From Streptomyces sp. NBC_01788 (GTDB lineage Bacteria > Actinomycetota > Actinomycetes > Streptomycetales > Streptomycetaceae): a stretch of DNA of 64,000 nt. Both the position numbers and the translations under genes were made by a program. Below, in pieces: positions 51,955 through 64,000 of the stretch; the first letter of the stretch is position 1; each line of letters opens with the position of its first letter. The stretch lies in assembly GCF_035917575.1 (NCBI RefSeq), contig NZ_CP109090.1, positions 2,046,001 through 2,110,000 on the forward strand, written 5' to 3'. A model generated the notes under the pieces. It worked only from the letters and a program-made list of their open reading frames with translations. It was not told the origin of the DNA and searched no databases.

Positions 51955-52845
51955 TCAGTAACCGGCTACCCCGTCGGTCGTCATCCGGTGCCAGACCTCT
52001 TCCGCCCGCTGCCGAAGGGCGGGAACGAGTTCCAGGTTGTCTCCGCGTTCGGCGCTCTGCAGGAGTTCGGTGATGACCACCAGTTCGGCGAAGCGCCCGG
52101 CGTCACTGTCGAGACCAGTGGAAAGTTCCCGGCGGACGCGCTCGGCGGTCTCCGGCATCGTAAGGCTGTAGGCGTGCAGGAGGGCTGCGTCATAGCCGGC
52201 CGGGGCGGTGCCCCATCCTTCCCAGTCCAGGATGCCGAGTTCGGGACCGGCGAGATTGGCCCAGTGCAGGTCACCGTGTGCGGTGGACCACGCGGGCGGA
52301 GTCGTGGGCACCCCACTGCCGAGGAAAGCGAGGTACTTCGGCATGGCGCGATCCAGGTAGGCACGACGTACGGCCGTCCGGTCGGTACGGACCGCCGAAA
52401 GGTGGTCGAGGGCCTTGCGGAGGCCATCCCACCAGGCTGTTGTCAGGCGGGGCGGGGCGGCAAGTACCGCAGTGGACGAGAGGGTTCCGTCGACAACAAG
52501 GTCATACAGCTCTGCTTTGTACGCCTCCTCCCCCTTCGTCCACTGCCGTACGAGACGAAGACAAGGGCGCGGCACCTGCTGGGGTACCAACTGCTCGGCG
52601 TCCTCCGGTCCCATCCACAGTTTGCCGCTCGCCTTGTCCGCCGAGCTGTGGACGACGCGCAGCCATGCCGGCCCGTAGGGCCCGGTGACGGGTCGGCCCA
52701 GCGTGCGTCCCCTCCACCCCCACGCCTCCTGCGTGCCTCCGCCAGACGGCCGAGCATCCAGGACCGCCCCGAGGAAGCCGCACGCCACGGTATGGGCCCT
52801 CCGCATGCGCGCGGCGACCTCGGGATCGTCAGGTTCCGAGGACAT
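51955..52845 (-). CDS. aminoglycoside-phosphotransferase-fold protein
   Basis: 296 residues. The kinase-like catalytic loop is TAHGDLHWANLAG (residues ~188-200: His190, Asp192, Asn197) and the metal-binding Asp is in LGILDWEGWGTAP (Asp207). This is the APH/choline kinase fold. The N-lobe is weakly conserved, with no clear P-loop Gly motif. It is the last gene of a four-gene minus-strand operon (47-residue peptide, JmjC cupin, aldo/keto reductase) and overlaps the reductase gene by 17 bases. In RiPP clusters such phosphotransferase-fold proteins act as Ser/Thr kinases in dehydration or in self-protection. Here the role is inferred only from the context. Confidence 0.8.
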   Translation of the reverse strand: MSSEPDDPEVAARMRRAHTVACGFLGAVLDARPSGGGTQEAWGWRGRTLGRPVTGPYGPAWLRVVHSSADKASGKLWMGPEDAEQLVPQQVPRPCLRLVRQWTKGEEAYKAELYDLVVDGTLSSTAVLAAPPRLTTAWWDGLRKALDHLSAVRTDRTAVRRAYLDRAMPKYLAFLGSGVPTTPPAWSTAHGDLHWANLAGPELGILDWEGWGTAPAGYDAALLHAYSLTMPETAERVRRELSTGLDSDAGRFAELVVITELLQSAERGDNLELVPALRQRAEEVWHRMTTDGVAGY

Positions 52846-53725
52846 CGATGACCTTCCTCAGGCGATCGGGTGACAAGGGCTCGCATGCCTCAGCGCCCAG
52901 GGCATCAGCCCAGTGTGCCGGTGTACTCGACGACAGCAGGACACGCGACACCCCGGGAGCCGACAGGGCGACCGAGAGCACGGCCTGCACCGGGGAGGCA
53001 GCGGGGTCGATGACGCGCACCAGTTCCTCCGCCACCGCGCCGAGGAGCTCGCCGCCTCCGAGCGGGGCCGATGCGAAGACATCGAGCCCCGCTTCCCGTG
53101 CCTCCACCAGTGCTCCGCACCCGTCGAGTGCGTCCGCCACCACGGCGAGTTGAATCAGTGAGACCGGGAACTGCACAGCTCGGAAGCAGTGATGTGGCCC
53201 GCCCACGGTTTCCGCAAGTGCCGTGAGTTCAGAGATGGTGAACATTCCGCTCGACAGGCCCGCCCAGGTGGCGACGCCGTAGCCGCCGATCTTGCTGGCG
53301 TCCGCCGCGCTCTCCAGTTCCTCGAATGCGTCGGTCAGCGTCCGCGACAGATCGGCCCTGTCCGTCCGGCCGTGCTCCGGATTGTGAACGAAGACCAGGT
53401 CCGGGACGCGGCCAAGGCGGGCACGACTACGGGCGAGCTGCCAGGCGATGTAGGGACGTGCCAGGCAGTGGCCTTGATCGCGGTCGTACGGCGGCACCCC
53501 GGCGTCCCGAGCAGCCTGCCGGTCGGAGTCGGGCACGAAGCCGACCTTGGTCGAGACACGTACCTGTGGACACGCGTCGAGGACCGGCCGCAGAGCTGCC
53601 TCGGCCGTACCGGACGCGTAGTTCGGCGCCGTATCGACCCATGTCACCCCGGCGTCCACGGCCGCGACCACCGACTGCGACACGTCACGGCACCGATACG
53701 TCCCGGCTGCCAGTCGCGCGCTCAT
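52829..53725 (-). CDS. aldo/keto reductase
   Basis: 298 residues with the full catalytic tetrad: Asp31 and Tyr36 in WVDTAPNYASG, Lys60 in VSTKVGF, His114 in VFVHNPEHG. The NADPH-binding end of the barrel is in VQAVLSVALSAPGVSRVL near residue 255. It resembles the pyridoxal/L-fucose-dehydrogenase-like branch. The start overlaps the JmjC gene stop by 4 bases; the stop overlaps the phosphotransferase-like gene. It might reduce or oxidise a carbonyl or alcohol generated on the peptide or another small molecule made by the operon. Confidence 0.87.
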   Translation of the reverse strand: MSARLAAGTYRCRDVSQSVVAAVDAGVTWVDTAPNYASGTAEAALRPVLDACPQVRVSTKVGFVPDSDRQAARDAGVPPYDRDQGHCLARPYIAWQLARSRARLGRVPDLVFVHNPEHGRTDRADLSRTLTDAFEELESAADASKIGGYGVATWAGLSSGMFTISELTALAETVGGPHHCFRAVQFPVSLIQLAVVADALDGCGALVEAREAGLDVFASAPLGGGELLGAVAEELVRVIDPAASPVQAVLSVALSAPGVSRVLLSSSTPAHWADALGAEACEPLSPDRLRKVIDVLGT

Positions 53726-54906
53726 CCAGCCCGCCCCACAGCCGCGACCTCGCCGTCCACCAGTTCGCTCACGAGTTGCGCCACCTGCCCGACGCGAAGC
53801 CCGGCCGCCCGGGCGAGTGTGTCCAGGCGGTAATGGCCTCCGTCCACGAGGAGGGACAGCAGGGGCGCGGCCTGCGGGGAGAAGGTCCATTCCTCTCCCC
53901 CTGCTGTCAGCACCGCGTGGCCCTCCCTGTCGCTGTGCAGCCCGGCGCGAGCGGTCACCAGGTGTACGACGACGGCGGGGTCGGGCGGTACGCCCTCGAC
54001 ATACGGCAGTGAGGGCACGAGGCGGGCCCGGTCGGCGGCGTCCCGCATGGTGAGGAAGCGGTCGAGTAGCCGTTCGTCCTCGAACTCCTTCATGACGAGG
54101 TCGCCGAGCGACCGCACGAAATCCGCCTTCTCTTCCTCGGTCCCGAAGCGTGGCAGGTCGCTGCGCACGGTCGTTTCACGGCGCAGATCCTCGGAGAGCC
54201 ACTGGAGGAGGTCGGCGCCGGTCGTCGTCTGCATGCCGCAGGTGAGGTGGAGGGAGTGGACGCCTTCGGAAGCGGCGACAGCGTGCCACCAACCGCGCGG
54301 CAGGTACAGCATGTCCCCTGCGTGCAGGACCAGTTCGACGAGAGGCTCATGCGGCGGCGGTTCGGGGACGTCCGTGTCACGGTGGAGCGGGGCTTGCCTC
54401 GTGGGGCCGTGGATGCGCCATCGTTTGGCGCCGTCGAGTTGGAGGACGAGCACGTCGTGGTCGTCCCAGTGGACTCCGAAGCCCTCCTCGGGCGTCCAGG
54501 AGGCGTAGGCGTTGACCTGGATGCCGGTGCGCAGGTGTCGTTCCAGTTCCTGGGCGAGGTGGCCGACGCCCGGGTGCAACTCGTCGATCGCGTCCAGGAC
54601 GAGGGTGGCGCCCTCGGCGAGGTGGCGGTGCAGTTCGGCGGGCTTGAGCCGGTGCCACACGGTGCTGCGACGGGTGGTGACCGGCGCCGAGTAGGCGTGT
54701 TGGGGCAGCGCCTCGCCGCCCGCCGAGAGGCGCAGGCGGGGCGGTTCGAGCCGGTGGTGGGTGAGCAGGGCGTTCAGGTCGTCCCAGCCGAGCAGGCCGC
54801 CGAAGCGGCCCGGTTCACCGGGAAAGTGGCGGTAGGTACGGCCGTACACCTGGGCGAGGAAGTCCTCGCCCAGGCGCGCGACCACCGCGGGTACGTCGGT
54901 GGTCAT
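53722..54906 (-). CDS. JmjC-type cupin oxygenase
   Basis: 394 residues. The fold of ribosomal-oxygenase-like JmjC proteins (YcfD/ROX family) is suggested by RLRLSAGGEALPQHAYSAPV (residues ~57-76), the iron site GFGVHWDDHDVLVLQL (His146, Asp148) and the distal His208 in YLPRGWWHAVAA. The 2-oxoglutarate-site Lys is likely in GAKRWRIHG (~159). The C-terminal ~150 residues are helical with a winged-helix-like end, as in YcfD relatives. Such enzymes hydroxylate side chains (His, Arg, Asp) in proteins or peptides. It is directly downstream (15 bases) of the 47-residue peptide gene, which makes that peptide a possible substrate. Confidence 0.82.
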   Translation of the reverse strand: MTTDVPAVVARLGEDFLAQVYGRTYRHFPGEPGRFGGLLGWDDLNALLTHHRLEPPRLRLSAGGEALPQHAYSAPVTTRRSTVWHRLKPAELHRHLAEGATLVLDAIDELHPGVGHLAQELERHLRTGIQVNAYASWTPEEGFGVHWDDHDVLVLQLDGAKRWRIHGPTRQAPLHRDTDVPEPPPHEPLVELVLHAGDMLYLPRGWWHAVAASEGVHSLHLTCGMQTTTGADLLQWLSEDLRRETTVRSDLPRFGTEEEKADFVRSLGDLVMKEFEDERLLDRFLTMRDAADRARLVPSLPYVEGVPPDPAVVVHLVTARAGLHSDREGHAVLTAGGEEWTFSPQAAPLLSLLVDGGHYRLDTLARAAGLRVGQVAQLVSELVDGEVAAVGRAG

Positions 54907-54921
54907 CGATTACGGCCCTTC

Positions 54922-55065
54922 TCAGTCGTTGCCGTCGGAACGACCGGTGGAACCGCCGTCCGAGGGCTGCTCGGCCCGCGATCGGGCGGCGGCGATCCGG
55001 CGACGGGCGACCAGCAGGCCGTGGCCCTCTTGATCACCGTTCGTGGTCACGTTCTGTTCGGACAT
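54922..55065 (-). CDS. 47-residue peptide, candidate RiPP precursor or small partner of the JmjC enzyme
   Basis: The ATG at 55065 follows a near-perfect ribosome site (AAGGAG, 8 bases away). The peptide begins MSEQNVTTNGDQEGHGLLVA, has an Arg/Ala-rich middle (RRRIAAARSRAEQ) and ends in a Ser/Asp/Gly/Asn tail (DGGSTGRSDGND). It is the first gene of the minus-strand operon with JmjC cupin, aldo/keto reductase and phosphotransferase-fold genes. Its polar tail is rich in residues that such enzymes modify (Ser, Thr, Asp, Asn, Arg). No Cys is present, so a lanthionine product is excluded. A regulatory or scaffold peptide is the other option. Confidence 0.7.
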   Translation of the reverse strand: MSEQNVTTNGDQEGHGLLVARRRIAAARSRAEQPSDGGSTGRSDGND

Positions 55066-55203
55066 GGCTGTGTCTCCTTAGGTGTTGGCGGAAGCGAGCA
55101 GGTTGCCCACTCCCTGGCTGTGGCGTCTCCAGCTGCCCCACCAGGCGGTGGCGGCCCGGCCGGAGGCGCCTGTACCCGGCTTCAGGACTCATGCGTCCAA
55201 AAG

Positions 55204-55227
55204 TCAGGTGGTCAGTGATCAGGTGGT
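55204..55227. repeat. direct repeat upstream of the peptide operon
   Basis: tcaggtggt occurs at 55204-55212 and 55219-55227 (15-base period). It lies in the region between the peptide gene start and the end of the upstream ATP-binding gene. It may be a regulatory site for the operon. Confidence 0.4.
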
Positions 55228-55758
55228 GGTGACATGCGCACGGGAGCCGCTGAGCACGCCACATCCCGGTTCGGCAACCGTCACCGGCCGCCGTGCACCC
55301 CCGAACGAGAGATCGCTTTCGCATGCGGCGGGGAACGGGCGGGACTGCGAGGGCGAGCAACTGCCGACCTCGAACCAGACCGCCTTTCCGGCCGTGGTCG
55401 ACCGGACGCCCCACGCCTGGGCAAGACCGTCGACCAACTGCAGTCCGCGCCCGCTCTCCTCGTCCAGGTCGGCCGGCGCCCGCTGCGGGAGAAGGCCGCC
55501 TTCCGCGTCCTCGGCTTCCAGGCGTACGCGAGTCCCGTCCCAGCTCACCGTGACCCGGCAACCCTCCCCCGCGTGCACCACGGCGTTCGCGATCACCTCA
55601 CCGGCCAGCAGCTCCAGCGTCTCGACCGTGTCCTCCGCAAGTGGCACGTCCCAGTCACGGACGATCGCGACAACCCTGCGACGAGCGGAAGAAACGGAGC
55701 TGACGTCCGATGGGACACAGAGGGACGAGAACTTCGGGGCAGGTGCTCGGAACGTCAT
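55219..55758 (-). CDS. ATP-binding protein of the HATPase_c (SpoIIAB/RsbW-like) family
   Basis: About 179 residues. The N box is ELLAGEVIANAVVHAGEGCR (residues ~48-67), the G box is DEESGRGLQLVDGLAQAWGV (~97-116), followed by GKAVWFEVG. These motifs match small GHKL ATPases that Streptomyces encodes in large numbers, often as partners of XRE regulators and DUF397 proteins. It may act as an anti-sigma-type kinase. It is divergent from the XRE/TPR regulator at 55936. The ATG at 55758 is preferred to the longer 55800. Its stop is about 150 bases from the peptide gene start. Confidence 0.87.
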   Translation of the reverse strand: MTFRAPAPKFSSLCVPSDVSSVSSARRRVVAIVRDWDVPLAEDTVETLELLAGEVIANAVVHAGEGCRVTVSWDGTRVRLEAEDAEGGLLPQRAPADLDEESGRGLQLVDGLAQAWGVRSTTAGKAVWFEVGSCSPSQSRPFPAACESDLSFGGARRPVTVAEPGCGVLSGSRAHVTTT

Positions 55759-55935
55759 GGAGGGCGAACCTTCCTGGCTGTGTGCGTCGGAGTTCCACAC
55801 AACCGCTCACAGCTGCCAACGCCCAGAGCACAATGGACGCACCAATGCGGCATCCGTGCGTCACCACCACGCCTCACCTGGGGACTCGCCCAGCCGCACG
55901 TCCTGGCAGGGCAGGAGAAACGGGGAGACAGCGTC

Positions 55936-57102
55936 ATGGCGCACCACCGCAACGGCCTCGCAGCGCGTCGCCGAACCGTGGGCCTCACCCAAGAGGCCCT
56001 CGCCGAGCACATGCAGGTGGACCGCTCCACCATCACCCGTTGGGAATCAGGCCGCACCGCCCCGCAGCCCTGGATGCGTCCACGGCTGGCCCGCCTTCTT
56101 CGCGTCAACGCCGAGGGTCTCAACGACCTACTGACCGCCTGGTCGCCAGGCAGCACGCAGGCACAGGACGCCCTCGATTACGCGATGCTTCACCCGGGCC
56201 GCCTCGATCTGCCCGCCGTCGCCACACTTCGTACTCGCTTCGACGACTGCGCCGCTCGTTACGACCTTGTGCCTTCGGCCGGCCTCATCGCAGAAGCAGC
56301 AGCGCAGCTCAACCGCATCGACCAGCTCGCCGCAGGCTCCGCCCGCGGACGCGTCCAGAGGGAACTCGACGCCCTGCACGCCGACGCCTGCACTCTCATG
56401 GGTCAGTTGGTCTGGGACGCCTCTCAGCGCCGCGACCACACCACCGCGAAGACGTACTACGAGCAGAGCGCCAACCTCGCTCGCCACCTACGGGACACCA
56501 CTCTCGAAGCCCACGCCTTACTGCGCACCTGTTACGTCGCGCTGTACGGCGCACACGACGCGCAGGCAGGGCTCGCGCTCGCGAAGCACGCAGCCGAGAT
56601 TGCCCAGCGCACGAGTCCCGCCCTGTCCGGGCTGGCGCTGCTGCACGTCGCCGAGGCACACGCCATGCTGCGGTCGACCTCGGACTGCGAACGCGCTCTC
56701 TCCCGCGCAGAGCGCCAACTCGACCACGCGGACGACAGCGACGCCGCCGCCGACCTGGTGTCCCCAACCCAGTTCGGCCGCCTCGCGGGCTCCTGCTATC
56801 TCTCGCTTGGAGACCACCAACGGGCCGAAACCCTGCTGACCAGCACGGCAGAGAAGCTACGGGACAGGCGAAAGTCACGCGCAATCGTGCTGGGGAACCT
56901 TACGCTCGCCCGTATCCGTCAACGCGATGTCGAGGCGGGGGTGGCCAGCCTCACCGAAGCCATCGCCGAGCTGGAGACCACACGCGGAGGCGGAGGCATG
57001 AACATCGTCTTCGGAGCCGCCCGCGAACTGCGCCCCTGGCGACAGGAACCCCTCGTCGCGGAGGTCCACGACAGACTGCTCGGCCTGATGACGGCAGCGT
57101 AG
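55936..57102 (+). CDS. XRE family regulator with TPR-like domain
   Basis: 388 residues. The N-terminal HTH is GLAARRRTVGLTQEALAEHM plus QVDRSTITRWESGRT (residues ~7-42). The remainder is helical: repeated TPR-like segments such as AKTYYEQSANLARHLRDTTL (~172) and ALALAKHAAEIAQRTSP (~210), ending with ETRRGG-type turns. Such proteins respond to peptides or partners through the TPR domain. The position next to the ATP-binding gene and 0.9 kb from the peptide operon is suggestive of a control role, but unproven. The ATG at 55936 is chosen because the HTH begins there. Confidence 0.87.
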   Translation: MAHHRNGLAARRRTVGLTQEALAEHMQVDRSTITRWESGRTAPQPWMRPRLARLLRVNAEGLNDLLTAWSPGSTQAQDALDYAMLHPGRLDLPAVATLRTRFDDCAARYDLVPSAGLIAEAAAQLNRIDQLAAGSARGRVQRELDALHADACTLMGQLVWDASQRRDHTTAKTYYEQSANLARHLRDTTLEAHALLRTCYVALYGAHDAQAGLALAKHAAEIAQRTSPALSGLALLHVAEAHAMLRSTSDCERALSRAERQLDHADDSDAAADLVSPTQFGRLAGSCYLSLGDHQRAETLLTSTAEKLRDRRKSRAIVLGNLTLARIRQRDVEAGVASLTEAIAELETTRGGGGMNIVFGAARELRPWRQEPLVAEVHDRLLGLMTAA

Positions 57103-59261: not shown

Positions 59262-62200
59262 TCACGAGCCGGTCACCCTCAACCAACAGGAATGCAGCAC
59301 CGGTTCAGGGCGGTGCAGACCAGCCGAGTCCACGTCGAAGACTTGGAGAGCACGGAGGATCCGGATGGCATCGACGGCTTCCGGCCCAGGGTTCAGACCG
59401 GCGGCGCCAGCAGCTACCTCGAGATCTTCGAACGGCAAGCCCTGCTCTGTCATGAACTCCAGCACAGCGGTGAACGCCGACCATCGGAACGTCTCTGGTA
59501 CGAGACCCACCTGGGCCAGAAAGTCTGCCGCGCCCTCGGGACCGTCCAGCCGACTGCGCACCGACTTCAGGGCAGCACCCTCTGAGTCGCCCCGGGATAC
59601 TTGTTCGGAGAGTTGATCGATGAGCAGCGGCCAGCCACCCGTGGTTTCCGCCGCCCTCTGCAACGCCGCCTCCGACGTAAACGAGTTCTGGTCGAGGGAC
59701 CAGGTGCGCAGCCCGTGTCGGGTGAAGCGCCGCAGCGGGACGACTCCGACGGCGGACGTCTGCTCGTCCGACAACAAGGATGCCCACAGGGAAAGCTGCT
59801 CAAGCCCTGCCACGACCACGGCGGATCGAGTCACCCCTGGACCGTCGGGCAGTCGGGTGGTTGCCAGTTCCGGGGAGATGAGGCAGGACTGCTCGCCGGG
59901 AGACTTGACGGTCAGGTCGGAGACCACGAGTCGACTCATCCCCGGCTCGCCGCCGACGAGCTCCCGCTCGAAGTCGGCCCGTCGAACCACATGCGGCATC
60001 TTCCAGCCGGTGGTCTCAGCAATCTCGCGCAACGCGGTGGTGACCCGGTGTACGCCTGTGGCGGGGGAGCCGAGTACCACCCGAGCCAAATTCCGGCGCC
60101 CCGGCTCAGAACCGGAGACCTGCCTCCCCGGCAGGATGTCTGCGATCTGTGCGGCGGTCAGCGGGCAGTGCAAGTGGGACTTCGCGGACTTGTGCCGTGT
60201 CTCCAGGGCGGTCAGCCGTTCGGTCACCTGCCGGCTGGAGGTGTTCTCCAGCTGCGCGTCCACGTCTTCCAACGTACCGATCATGCTGAGGGCGTTGGCA
60301 CTGCGTAGATGCCAGCCCCGGTGATCCGGGTCGGGGGCGAGAACACCGAGACCCTCCATCTCCGTGAGGTACGCGCGGAACTGGTCCGGGTCCAGGTCCC
60401 TGAACCCCTCCGCCCACCAGTAGGTACACCCGTCGCGCAGTTCGGCATGGGTCATCCGAGCGTCAATCCCGTGGTGATGAGCGTGGTGCGCTACCACGTT
60501 AGCGATCATGTTGTACCGGGAATCGAGCCGCAAGGTGTCGTGGAAGGCGGCGGTGATACTCCGCTGGAGGTCCTTATCGGACTGAACGCGTTCGACATCA
60601 TCGCGGGCGATGAAGTGCAGCGGACCTGACTTCGCCTCCCGCCTCCTAGCGTGCATGGTCTGCACAAGCCGGTGCGCGAACATCTGCAGCAGGAACGGCT
60701 GGTAAGAACAGTGACCCAGGATGCGGTGCACCAATGGCGGCTCCAAGAACTGGTATCCCAGTGCGGCCAGCGGTTTGAGAAGCAGGTTCGCCGCGTCCTG
60801 GGGCTGAAGCGGGCCGATGACCGTCGGATGCTGCGAGAGGTGGCTGAAGGGATTGTTCGCCGCGAGGGTGGCGTATCGCTGTACCGAGTGGAGTCCGGCA
60901 AAGACGATCTTGACACCGTCGTTGGTCTCGGAACTGAGGTCACGCAGCCGCCGGGTCTCGGTGAACCTCGGCGAGTCCGACTCGAAGAATCCGTCCGCCT
61001 CGTCCAGCATGATGAGCATCCGCCGACTGCTGTCGGCCTTCAGCCAAGCCCTGATGCCGGTCAGCACGTTGTCGTAGGTGAGGGTCGCATCGGCCCGCAC
61101 ACGCTTGGGCAGTGGAAGGGCGCCCTCCTCCAGCAGCCTGCGCCCGATGAGATTCCACACGGCCGAGGACTGGGCACTGGTGCCGTTATAAGTGGAGTCC
61201 AAGCTGAGAGCCATGCTGATGTGAGCCATAGGTGCCTGCGCGGTGAACTTCCGGCCCGCTTCCTTCAGCAGTGCTGACTTGCCGAGCCCTCGGCCTCCAA
61301 ACACCACCTGGTTGCCCACCGGGTTCTGTACGGAGCCGAGTTCTTCCAGACGTCCGAAGAACATTTCCTCGGCCACGCGGCCGCGCTTCTCACTGACGTA
61401 CGGATTCACGGCCGAGAACGGCAGCAGCACCCGCATCGCCGGGTCGAGCAGCTGGTTGCCCCGGGCGGCGAGGTAGGCGAGGGCCGCATCGTCGAGCACC
61501 ACCATGGGTCGACGTCCGACGCTGAGCGCGGCCAGTGAGGTCCGAGCCTGTGCGGAAAGTGTGCCGAAGTACGCGACCAGCAGGCTCTCCTGGCTGGGGT
61601 CCTGTTGTACGCGCGCCATCAACGCTTCCGGAGTCGGCTGGCCCCACGCCAACATGACCCGCAGCCTGCCACGCAGAGCAGAGCCAAAAGAGGGCACCAA
61701 GGCTTCTCCCGTGTACCGGACCTCCTGCAGGTCCAGGAAACGGTGTTCGGCGGTGGTGCTGCGCTGTCGGTCACGTTGCGGTTTGCGCAGGCTTCGGTAT
61801 CCGATGAGACGGAGCGCCGGCATGAGCAGATTCTCCTCGCTCAGGCCCTCTGTCCTCCTGACGCCCCGTCGTGAGGCCATCTCTCGCCAACCCGACAGAC
61901 CATTGGCTGCCTGATCGGTGAACTCCTGTGACATGGCGGAGAAGTCGAGTGCGTCCAGGTTCTGGAAGCGCTGCCGGTCCCGTACCGCCCGAATGAGCTC
62001 CTCGGTGATGCCGTGGGGCAGGGCATCAGGCACCGAAGGGAAGAAGGCGTTCAGCGGATGGTCCCCGTAACGCGTGTCGGGGATGCTCTCGCCGTTGGAA
62101 AGGTGAGAGATCAGCTCCTCGGCGGTCAGCAGGTCGCCGTCGTCGAGAAGGGGAGTCACCCGTGCGGCATCCTCGGTCTTCAGGCCGGGGATCTCCATGA

Positions 62201-64000
62201 GCCGCGTCCGCAGTTTGGCGGTGGCTGTCGCGTGGGCACGTTCAAGCTCCTCCGACAATGCATCGAGCCGCTGCCGTATGGAAGCAAGGTCAGATTTCGT
62301 GGTGAGCGCGGGCGTTTGAAGCCGGTGTTCAAAATCGCGCTCCTCCTCTTCCTTGAAGACGCCGTTGACGCGCGTGCGGCGCAGCGAGTCCTCAAGTTCC
62401 CGCCGCTTGCCTTCCAGAGCGGCCACCGTGTTCCGTGCCGCCTCCCGCAATGCAAGATGAACGCTCTCGTCAGTCAACTCTTCATGACCATTCGGGCCAG
62501 GTGGCAGCAAACGCATCTCGGAAAGACCCAGGAGATGATCCGCGAGGTCGAACCGTTCAGCCGCCCGATGGCTGTCGATGACGTCCAGCCAGGACCGGTC
62601 GGCGGCCTCAACGATGCTCTCGGCGGTCAGCTCCGGTGGAATCACGCGTCCCGTCGCCTCTTCCACCCGCACGCCGGGGAGCTTGAGGAGATCAATGCCA
62701 AGGACGACTTCCGCCGAATACTCAGGGGGATCGAGCCTAGCGTCACCCGCCAACAGGTCGAAGGTGCGCCGCAGCGAATCCGCAGCGGCTCGCATGGCGG
62801 ACTGGGTGTAAGCGTCGCCGGCGAGCGACTGTACCGCCAGGTCATCCAGTACGTGGTCTCGCAGAGCCAGCACGGCCCCGCGCATCGCCTGGACCTGATC
62901 AACGCTCCAGTCGTTCGCTCCGACATCGAGCGCGCGAGCGGCGACGACCCACTTTTCGGCGGTGCGCAGCCGGTCGTTCATCAGTCGGAGCAAGTTCTGC
63001 CTGGCGGGCCCTTCCAGGCGGCTCCTGCTGGATTTCATCAGCCTGCGGTCGACCTCGTTGAGTTCGTCCTGGAGGCCGGAACCGTTGGTCAGCATCCGCA
63101 CTCGGTTCGCGACCTCGTCCAGGCCGTCCCTGTTGTCGTCAGCGGCCTGGCGGAGCAGGCTGCCGATGAGACCGGAGGGTGCGAGCCAGAGCCGGGTGAT
63201 CTCGGTGGCCCGGTTGAACCGGATGCGGGGCAGCTGGTCCAGGCCCTGCCGACATTCTTCGCGGGCCTCTTGGAGGGAGCGTTCCAGTTCGGCTGTGCCA
63301 CGCGCCAGGCTGAGCGGCGGGGAATGCAGCAGCATGGACTGTAGCGCGCACCGGGAAACCTCGTCGGCTACGGACACGAGGCTCGGCGGCAGTACGGCGG
63401 CCACCTGCTGAAGCGGGGCGCTGGTCTCAGCGTCCCCGGTCACAAGGACGATCCGCAGCAGAGCGGCCGTGACGAGAGCCGCGTCCGGGCGGCTTTGGAC
63501 GAGGGCATCAATGTCCATCCCCGCCAGTTCGGCGCGTACCCGCGAGGCGCAGTCTCCGCTGGAGGAACGCAGCGCGAGGGCGTACGCGGAGATCCGCAGG
63601 GCGGCAGTGCGGAATCCGGGCTCGGCATTCTGCTCGGCCAGCGCGGCAGCGGCTCCGTAGCGTTGTTCCGCCACCAAGGGGGCCAGGACAGCCTCCGGAG
63701 AGTCACCTGGCACGAGCGCTGGGCCCGCCTTCACGGCCGTGTCGCCGGTCGGGTGCGGGCCCTGCTGCGACAAGACGGAGTTCGAAGCGGCGGGCTGCGC
63801 GGCCGGGGGGGCAGGCGTCGGCTCGGCGGAACGGGACGACGCATCGGGCTGTGTCGGGTGGTTGACGCGCTGCCGGTCCTCCCCCAGAGCGGGTCCTCGG
63901 CGCGGTCTGGACGCGACGCCGCGGTCCGCAGGAACGGCGGGACGCCCCTTCCCGGTGGTGTGCGAGCCAAGCTCAGTTGTACGGGGGCTCCCGTGCGGGT
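59262..64000 (-). CDS. large P-loop ATPase, 5' end outside the window
   Basis: The frame is open from the right edge to a stop at 59262, at least 1,578 codons. A TTG at 63773 is the first start-like codon in the computed frame, but the frame continues upstream to base 64000 as a Pro/Ala/Ser-rich stretch, so the true start may lie outside. From 63773: an N-terminal helical region with TPR-like helices (~1-650), a domain with RRPMVVLDDAALAYLA near 770, Walker A VFGGRGLGKSALLKE (around residue 825), Walker B MLIMLDEADGFF (~920), then winged-helix-like and helical segments to the end. This is an AAA/STAND-like ATPase with long sensor regions. Proteins of this build often act in phage defence or conflict, but no named system was recognised. 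It sits beside gene debris. Confidence 0.75.
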   Translation of the reverse strand, partial: PHGSPRTTELGSHTTGKGRPAVPADRGVASRPRRGPALGEDRQRVNHPTQPDASSRSAEPTPAPPAAQPAASNSVLSQQGPHPTGDTAVKAGPALVPGDSPEAVLAPLVAEQRYGAAAALAEQNAEPGFRTAALRISAYALALRSSSGDCASRVRAELAGMDIDALVQSRPDAALVTAALLRIVLVTGDAETSAPLQQVAAVLPPSLVSVADEVSRCALQSMLLHSPPLSLARGTAELERSLQEAREECRQGLDQLPRIRFNRATEITRLWLAPSGLIGSLLRQAADDNRDGLDEVANRVRMLTNGSGLQDELNEVDRRLMKSSRSRLEGPARQNLLRLMNDRLRTAEKWVVAARALDVGANDWSVDQVQAMRGAVLALRDHVLDDLAVQSLAGDAYTQSAMRAAADSLRRTFDLLAGDARLDPPEYSAEVVLGIDLLKLPGVRVEEATGRVIPPELTAESIVEAADRSWLDVIDSHRAAERFDLADHLLGLSEMRLLPPGPNGHEELTDESVHLALREAARNTVAALEGKRRELEDSLRRTRVNGVFKEEEERDFEHRLQTPALTTKSDLASIRQRLDALSEELERAHATATAKLRTRLMEIPGLKTEDAARVTPLLDDGDLLTAEELISHLSNGESIPDTRYGDHPLNAFFPSVPDALPHGITEELIRAVRDRQRFQNLDALDFSAMSQEFTDQAANGLSGWREMASRRGVRRTEGLSEENLLMPALRLIGYRSLRKPQRDRQRSTTAEHRFLDLQEVRYTGEALVPSFGSALRGRLRVMLAWGQPTPEALMARVQQDPSQESLLVAYFGTLSAQARTSLAALSVGRRPMVVLDDAALAYLAARGNQLLDPAMRVLLPFSAVNPYVSEKRGRVAEEMFFGRLEELGSVQNPVGNQVVFGGRGLGKSALLKEAGRKFTAQAPMAHISMALSLDSTYNGTSAQSSAVWNLIGRRLLEEGALPLPKRVRADATLTYDNVLTGIRAWLKADSSRRMLIMLDEADGFFESDSPRFTETRRLRDLSSETNDGVKIVFAGLHSVQRYATLAANNPFSHLSQHPTVIGPLQPQDAANLLLKPLAALGYQFLEPPLVHRILGHCSYQPFLLQMFAHRLVQTMHARRREAKSGPLHFIARDDVERVQSDKDLQRSITAAFHDTLRLDSRYNMIANVVAHHAHHHGIDARMTHAELRDGCTYWWAEGFRDLDPDQFRAYLTEMEGLGVLAPDPDHRGWHLRSANALSMIGTLEDVDAQLENTSSRQVTERLTALETRHKSAKSHLHCPLTAAQIADILPGRQVSGSEPGRRNLARVVLGSPATGVHRVTTALREIAETTGWKMPHVVRRADFERELVGGEPGMSRLVVSDLTVKSPGEQSCLISPELATTRLPDGPGVTRSAVVVAGLEQLSLWASLLSDEQTSAVGVVPLRRFTRHGLRTWSLDQNSFTSEAALQRAAETTGGWPLLIDQLSEQVSRGDSEGAALKSVRSRLDGPEGAADFLAQVGLVPETFRWSAFTAVLEFMTEQGLPFEDLEVAAGAAGLNPGPEAVDAIRILRALQVFDVDSAGLHRPEPVLHSCWLRVTGS

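Follow-up and report, generated by a model that had tools for sequence, protein, structure and literature searches.

A compact Streptomyces operon as a possible undescribed pathway to a modified ribosomal peptide

Classes of ribosomally synthesised and post-translationally modified peptides (RiPPs) are defined by their chemistry, and the cofactor RiPPs PQQ and mycofactocin, which have invariant cores, need a radical S-adenosylmethionine (SAM) enzyme. JmjC oxygenases are mainly hydroxylases of histones and ribosomal proteins, with few in RiPP pathways, and the characterised ribosomal oxygenases hydroxylate the beta-carbon of side chains. AsnO and HasP, in the tailoring of the calcium-dependent antibiotic, between them hydroxylate Asn and then phosphorylate the hydroxyl so made, an account which our literature look-up did not confirm. 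In class V lanthipeptides the precursor peptide is phosphorylated by APH-type kinases (passages of PMC9486802). Here we describe a compact operon in Streptomyces sp. NBC_01788, in which a gene for a 47-residue peptide is followed by genes for a JmjC oxygenase, an aldo/keto reductase (AKR) and an APH-fold kinase. The stretch analysed, referred to throughout as the window, comprises 64,000 nucleotides (positions 2,046,001 to 2,110,000 of contig NZ_CP109090.1, assembly GCF_035917575.1) of a single-contig genome of 8.27 Mb. A preliminary description had proposed that these genes form a compact RiPP-like operon, a proposal which our analysis supports; no description of the four-gene operon was present among the literature matches listed (open-licence PMC papers, subscription papers being mostly outside this scope).

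The precursor peptide gene and its near-invariant core

We judge the 47-residue open-reading frame (ORF) to be real chiefly because its protein is conserved across genera and is linked to the JmjC gene. Of 110 loci, 107 have a precursor upstream of the JmjC gene, in L065 a broken one whose leader is out of frame with its core; as the window itself and near relatives are counted in, the 110 are not all independent. Conservation of the small ORF beside JmjC homologues, which the preliminary description had set as its own test, thus held. A profile built from 15 precursors and searched against the six frames of 295 Streptomyces genomes returned 41 strong matches (E ≤ 2e-14), spread over 37 genomes and all lying upstream of a JmjC gene of the four-gene family, on the same strand. 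The distance from peptide to JmjC match was 14–52 nt in 39 cases and 196 and 351 nt in the other two, where the JmjC match spans only part of the gene. Some JmjC match was present in 148 of the same 295 genomes, and 74 JmjC rows were entered among the matches listed: strong peptide matches accompany 41 of the 45 entered rows with at least 45% identity, and none of the 29 entered rows below it. The four peptide-less rows at or above 45% comprise G173:C17, which retains a remnant as in L067, and three gene pieces; among the matches listed, three more pieces of at least 45% identity, all short (G046:C37, G234:C1 and G196:C3:723117), fall outside the 74 entered rows. There were also 14 weak profile matches (E 0.002–0.009), five upstream of a JmjC gene of the sister family described below and nine with no entered JmjC match alongside. 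A chance ORF was rejected on the upstream conservation together with the 41 strong matches beside JmjC genes.

Codon usage favours a real peptide gene too, with limited weight. When the ORF was compared with its counterparts in six close relatives, differences were most frequent at third codon positions in five, L002 having 4, 2 and 4 differences, and synonymous versus nonsynonymous codon changes numbered 4/1, 4/5, 5/3, 6/4, 6/5 and 6/7. Across 73 distinct precursors with the SDGG core, S35 is encoded by four codons, and D44, N46 and D47 by one codon each.

The precursors are ~31–60 aa long across relatives. Their starts were picked by script, partly by ribosome site, and some N-termini (e.g. 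that of L051) may be wrong; the homologous starts therefore lend no independent support to the AAGGAG site of the window. In an alignment of 15 sequences L17, D36, G41, D44, N46 and D47 are invariant, and R28 and S35 are nearly so. The short leader motif of the precursors reads GLLVAxxxIxAARxR. The core reads SDGG[SG][TS]G[RKV][STG]DxND in 72 of 88 distinct precursors and SD[NV][TS][GSA]G[RK][ST]DxND in 14, with a slight deviation in the other two (L065, counted as precursor-positive elsewhere, was dropped before this set). Seventy of the 88 end exactly at ND, and since the remainder carry one to four further residues, it is the core motif and not a free C-terminus that is conserved. The leader motif stands between this core and a far N-terminus which varies in both length and sequence, the reverse of the conserved N-terminal part and variable tail that had been forecast. 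Such a pattern, the opposite of a RiPP with a hypervariable core, suggests a single product. Cys is absent from the 88 distinct precursors of this family (A) and from 22 distinct ones of the sister family (B). Arg had been named among the residues in which the modified part is rich, but it is an unlikely target, as the core position holds R in 43, K in 17 and V in 13 of 73 distinct precursors; as the hydroxylated residue, Arg was rejected because of the V or K in so many cores.

Direct reading of the window bore out the layout first proposed (Table 1). The peptide ORF and the JmjC gene are separated by 15 nt, the TGA of the JmjC gene and the ATG of the AKR gene share four bases (ATGA), and the AKR and APH-fold genes overlap by 17 bases. 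Pfam assigns the enzymes to JmjC_2 (PF08007, E 7.7e-30), Aldo_ket_red (PF00248, E 1.2e-15) and APH (PF01636, E 3.5e-6). For the peptide there was no match in Pfam or NCBIfam, and NCBIfam gave nothing above cut-off for the four operon proteins or five relatives. The proposed catalytic residues also proved sound: His146, Asp148 and His208 of the JmjC protein are invariant in 48 aligned sequences, the AKR tetrad D32, Y37, K61 and H115 is kept in 102/102, 102/102, 102/103 and 102/103, and kinase residues H190, D192, N197, D207 and E209 in 111/111, 111/111, 109/111, 109/109 and 107/107 (AKR and APH counts are of letters at the column, excluding gaps and truncated rows). In a sequence search of the PDB there was no match for the kinase (E ≤ 0.1) or the AKR (E ≤ 0.001). 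Gene order, conservation and motifs are thus read from the sequence itself, and the protein folds are predicted.

Table 1. Features of the operon and its immediate neighbours, in window coordinates
Feature	Position	Strand	Basis
Precursor peptide gene, 47 aa, including stop	54922..55065	-	sequence reading, homologues, profile search
Ribosome-binding site AAGGAG, 8 nt 5' of ATG	55074..55079	-	direct reading
Leader motif, residues 16-28 (GLLVARRRIAAAR)	54982..55020	-	alignment; sister family
Core, residues 35-47 (SDGGSTGRSDGND)	54925..54963	-	alignment of precursors
JmjC_2 (PF08007) 2-oxoglutarate/Fe(II) oxygenase gene, HxD...H, 394 aa	53722..54906	-	
C-terminal winged-helix domain of JmjC protein, residues 313-394; candidate leader-binding domain	53725..53970	-	model
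AKR gene, 298 aa, tetrad D32/Y37/K61/H115 intact	52829..53725	-	
APH-fold kinase gene, 296 aa, HGDxxxxN and DWE intact	51955..52845	-	
HATPase_c_2 (RsbA/anti-sigma-like) gene, upstream; possible regulator, outside conserved four-gene core	55219..55800	-	
XRE-type helix-turn-helix regulator gene; neighbour in some relatives only	55936..57102	+	

Further along the window, at 59262-63773 on the minus strand, lies a gene whose 1503-aa product contains an AAA_22 ATPase domain (domain check only).

Spread of the cassette and its relatives

The nearest JmjC relatives of the window protein are from Streptomyces. A JmjC search across the phylum (396 genomes) gave a match at E ≤ 1e-20 in 57, with matches above 400 bits confined to the same genus. 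From a JmjC protein scan of genome contigs we kept the best 80 of 100 confirmed relatives as loci, and peptide, JmjC, AKR and APH genes occur together at 67 of these, in several actinobacterial genera (L065 included). Six loci lack only the AKR gene, two lack an adjacent APH gene and two have the peptide alone. An intact peptide is missing from the final three: L067 has a core remnant only, in L070 the leader is out of frame with the core, and L071 has a truncated JmjC match. At L024 the APH gene has shifted by ~4.5 kb, L047 stops at a contig edge, and L062 and L069 have the peptide and a shortened JmjC match without AKR or APH. Two copies of the cassette are present in some genomes (G279, G085, G051 and G064), in G064 with one copy close to each end of the single contig. 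Decayed or frame-shifted precursors stand beside JmjC and APH matches at L067, L132, L070 and L065, which gives the impression that a decaying cassette loses its precursor first.

Among 72,556 plasmids searched by tblastn, 49 records had a JmjC match (E ≤ 1e-20); 39 are from Streptomyces, and the 49 are not necessarily all carriers of the cassette. The six records opened, including pSV2 (NC_004934.1) and pSglau1 (NZ_CP009439.1), are all linear and all carry the four genes, annotated as 'cupin domain-containing protein' (JmjC), 'aldo/keto reductase' and, for both the kinase and the small ORF, 'hypothetical protein'. By tblastn with the window proteins JmjC, AKR and APH are found in all six at 39–53% identity and the peptide in five, the sixth plasmid (L193) having the variant core SDNTGGKSDMND; in L192 Gly replaces S35. 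In S. albidoflavus the cassette is flanked on both sides by IS112-family transposase genes. An invariant core and carriage on plasmids suggest one useful molecule shared among actinobacteria.

The flanking genes are lineage-specific. Among ten neighbour proteins scanned, which included an HATPase, a methyltransferase and several helix-turn-helix regulators, there was no transporter or peptidase; the neighbour-ORF picker missed AKR genes and may have missed other neighbours likewise. A dedicated peptidase or transporter is the usual but not the only route to leader removal, for which housekeeping proteases may serve here. The preliminary description would have yielded to a JmjC gene always tied to a ribosomal-protein gene. 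The six annotated plasmid stretches and the ten scanned neighbours showed no such gene, and ordinary linkage of that kind was rejected. A phage-defence reading was likewise dropped, as none of the four proteins had a PADLOC match at E ≤ 0.001.

Absence of the AKR gene marks a clade of seven rows (support 100/99 in a tree of 53 JmjC proteins); the loci concerned are L021, L025, L030, L032, L046, L058, L093 and L095. Since the AKR is otherwise present in both families, it was probably lost once. Precursors of this clade are short (31–33 aa), with the core SDGGGTG[KR]GDGND, or PDGGG in L046. Ser or Thr occupies position 39 or 43 in all 83 distinct AKR-positive precursors, and Gly occupies both positions in all three distinct AKR-negative ones, a pattern which, from a single event, hints that the AKR acts on a Ser/Thr-derived site. 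The clade offers a natural dissection of the pathway's steps. A set order of hydroxylation, redox change and phosphorylation, as first proposed, finds no support, and in this clade the AKR is absent.

More distant JmjC genes were sampled as 40 loci, hand-picked from the same-genus match list and then fetched. AKR and APH genes are present at 26, which constitute the sister family; in six compared with the window, identities are 29–32% (JmjC), 28–31% (AKR) and 30–34% (APH). All 26 encode a matching leader, mostly GLLVAVEELTAVHDR or near, joined to a different core, SDNAGSSGDAPWPGGDGNLTDIE or SDSTGTSAGDDGENRDGLNLPQE. The swap of cores behind a common leader shows that recognition probably falls to the leader and modification to the core. 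The APH gene is never outside this short stretch, but 24 of the 26 loci have it on the opposite strand. The other 14 distant loci are without AKR and APH (by tblastn at E ≤ 1e-3), and eight of them (L111, L112, L113, L119-L122 and L124) have no recognisable peptide, which speaks against peptide linkage as a general feature of the wider JmjC family. At L125, L128, L129 and L130 (JmjC ~34–36% identity, without AKR or APH) an Asp-Gly-Gly repeat ORF (GPADGGAAGTPGVHDGGADGG...) precedes the JmjC gene, and may represent a third JmjC/peptide pairing; a protein with an FFCADAAR motif is encoded nearby in L128 and L130. At L114 and L117 (JmjC 31–32% identity) the JmjC gene is preceded by a conserved 53-aa ORF (MADNTARNT..EQEFPEVEVKVSPVAERARATFAKTHNRAGVPDFTQMFGDS), unlike the operon precursors.

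A proposed pathway and its alternatives

We consider it probable, with some reserve, that the cassette represents an undescribed RiPP-like class whose tailoring would combine Asp/Asn hydroxylation, phosphorylation of a hydroxyl and redox chemistry by the AKR. Comparison of sequences gives it one mark of a RiPP locus: an encoded precursor linked to enzymes, with a recognisable leader and core. That the peptide is the substrate of the linked enzymes is well supported by inference, the strongest argument being that the same three enzymes accompany a shared leader with swapped cores. The predicted model of the JmjC protein aligns with NO66 over residues 1..392, also matches MINA53 and YcfD over its whole length, and has the parts of the ribosomal-oxygenase fold (HxD...H, a helical part and a C-terminal winged helix). 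In this last domain it places strands at 313-316, 322-325 and 331-335, a fourth at 338-342, then helices at 344-354, 361-368 and 372-384. A RiPP recognition element (RRE) is defined by the order strand-strand-strand-helix-helix-helix (passages of PMC12710340), which the modelled domain satisfies. No RRE-type Pfam match was found at E ≤ 10 in eight C-terminal JmjC pieces, the weak matches being to HTH_15, a ROXA-like winged helix and similar, with none for one piece. The domain is a candidate for binding of the leader.

From these features we infer the leader/core split, the binding of the leader, each of the reactions and the nature of the product. The short leader motif would be recognised, probably by the winged helix, and the JmjC enzyme would hydroxylate a core residue, most likely an invariant Asp or Asn at its beta-carbon, because the core is acidic and the characterised ribosomal oxygenases hydroxylate that carbon. 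The APH-fold kinase would then phosphorylate a hydroxyl of the core, either the new one or that of a Ser/Thr, and the AKR would add a further oxidation or reduction. The product would be a phosphorylated acidic peptide, on which the phosphate may remain, since the genome has no HopA1 and the precursors no Cys.

The role of the kinase could differ within the same RiPP-like pathway, if it were a self-resistance enzyme keeping the finished product inactive in the cell. The amicoumacin kinase AmiN is its top Foldseek match (TvaE being second), antibiotic kinases lead its VIA-align rows, among which a corramycin phosphotransferase appears, and at six of the 80 loci the peptide and APH genes persist where the AKR has been lost; its opposite orientation in 24 of 26 sister loci is what a separate function might produce. 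We nevertheless think this unlikely, as none of the 26 has the APH gene away from this short stretch, no transporter stands alongside among the ten neighbours scanned, and APH enzymes that phosphorylate peptides are known in RiPP pathways (passages of PMC9486802). A peptide that is not matured to a metabolite, and whose modified tail acts in the cell as a signal, metal-binding or carrier element in a regulatory or scaffold role, would fit the near-invariant, acidic, Asp/Asn-rich core, the lack of a peptidase or transporter among the ten scanned neighbours and the recurrence of XRE and HATPase regulators. Those regulators, however, differ by lineage while the enzymes stay, and the cassettes are patchy (strong peptide matches in 37 of 295 genomes) and sometimes plasmid-borne, like specialised metabolism, so that we hold this to be distinctly improbable. 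An ordinary, YcfD-like ribosomal oxygenase, with the small ORF as a chance neighbour or regulatory leader ORF, would agree with the structural alignment to NO66, MINA53 and YcfD along the whole protein. This reading is already disfavoured and most improbable: identity to the solved ribosomal oxygenases is only 15–23%, the peptide is conserved across bacterial families, its strong matches all lie beside this JmjC clade and beside none of the 29 more distant entered rows, and the sister family repeats the arrangement.

A bolder form of the pathway we favour can be put forward only tentatively: a RiPP class that spreads horizontally, in part on plasmids, and makes a single, nearly fixed product from an Asp/Asn-rich core by JmjC beta-hydroxylation, APH phosphorylation and a carbonyl/alcohol change by the AKR on a Ser/Thr-derived residue. 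If the RiPP-like reading is true, this would be, to our knowledge, the first RiPP class defined by a JmjC enzyme and a kinase; its recognition domain would be the winged helix of ribosomal oxygenases, and JmjC 'ribosomal oxygenases' and peptide-modifying enzymes would seem to share one origin. A third JmjC group, if that beside the Asp-Gly-Gly repeat proteins is one, would widen the class to a superfamily. Being self-contained, with four genes and a near-invariant core, the cassette is a clear test case for JmjC peptide chemistry.

Comparison with described systems

The order of chemistry proposed here resembles that ascribed to AsnO and HasP, which act on a non-ribosomal peptide, unlike the ribosomal precursor of the operon. 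PQQ and mycofactocin share with it an invariant core, suggesting one conserved product, but they need a radical SAM enzyme, whereas the operon enzymes belong to other families. As first claimed, no YcaO or radical SAM gene is present, nor MNIO or ATP-grasp, among the three enzymes as assigned by Pfam and ten flank proteins of relatives.

In class V lanthipeptides and thioamitides (CaoK/LxmK/TvaC; TvaE/LanX) an APH-fold kinase lies beside a Streptomyces precursor, as here. Of the features that define them, the operon has the intact APH kinase but neither the HopA1-type lyase (PF17914, no match in the whole genome) nor a core Cys, and lanthionine chemistry was rejected on these grounds. TvaE lacks the kinase catalytic residues (passages of PMC12291118), which the operon kinase retains. 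Biphenomycin-type RiPPs are similar in that a cupin or JmjC hydroxylase (PbsQ, cupin-like; BpmG, JmjC) acts on a ribosomal precursor, yet in the passages of PMC12257519 their clusters also have MNIO, B12 radical SAM and arginase enzymes, families other than those of the operon's three enzymes.

The JmjC protein itself has two sets of counterparts. The RRE-like domains fused to JmjC (PF08007) in passages of PMC12710340 combine the same Pfam family and a similar domain, in fish and algal proteins with bacterial homologues at ~30% identity, and those passages describe no operon, precursor, AKR or kinase. NO66, MINA53 and YcfD (ROXA) have the same JmjC part, HxD...H triad and C-terminal winged helix; in contrast to them, the operon enzyme is encoded in stretches read without a ribosomal-protein gene, and adjoins the gene for a short conserved peptide, which is presumably its substrate.

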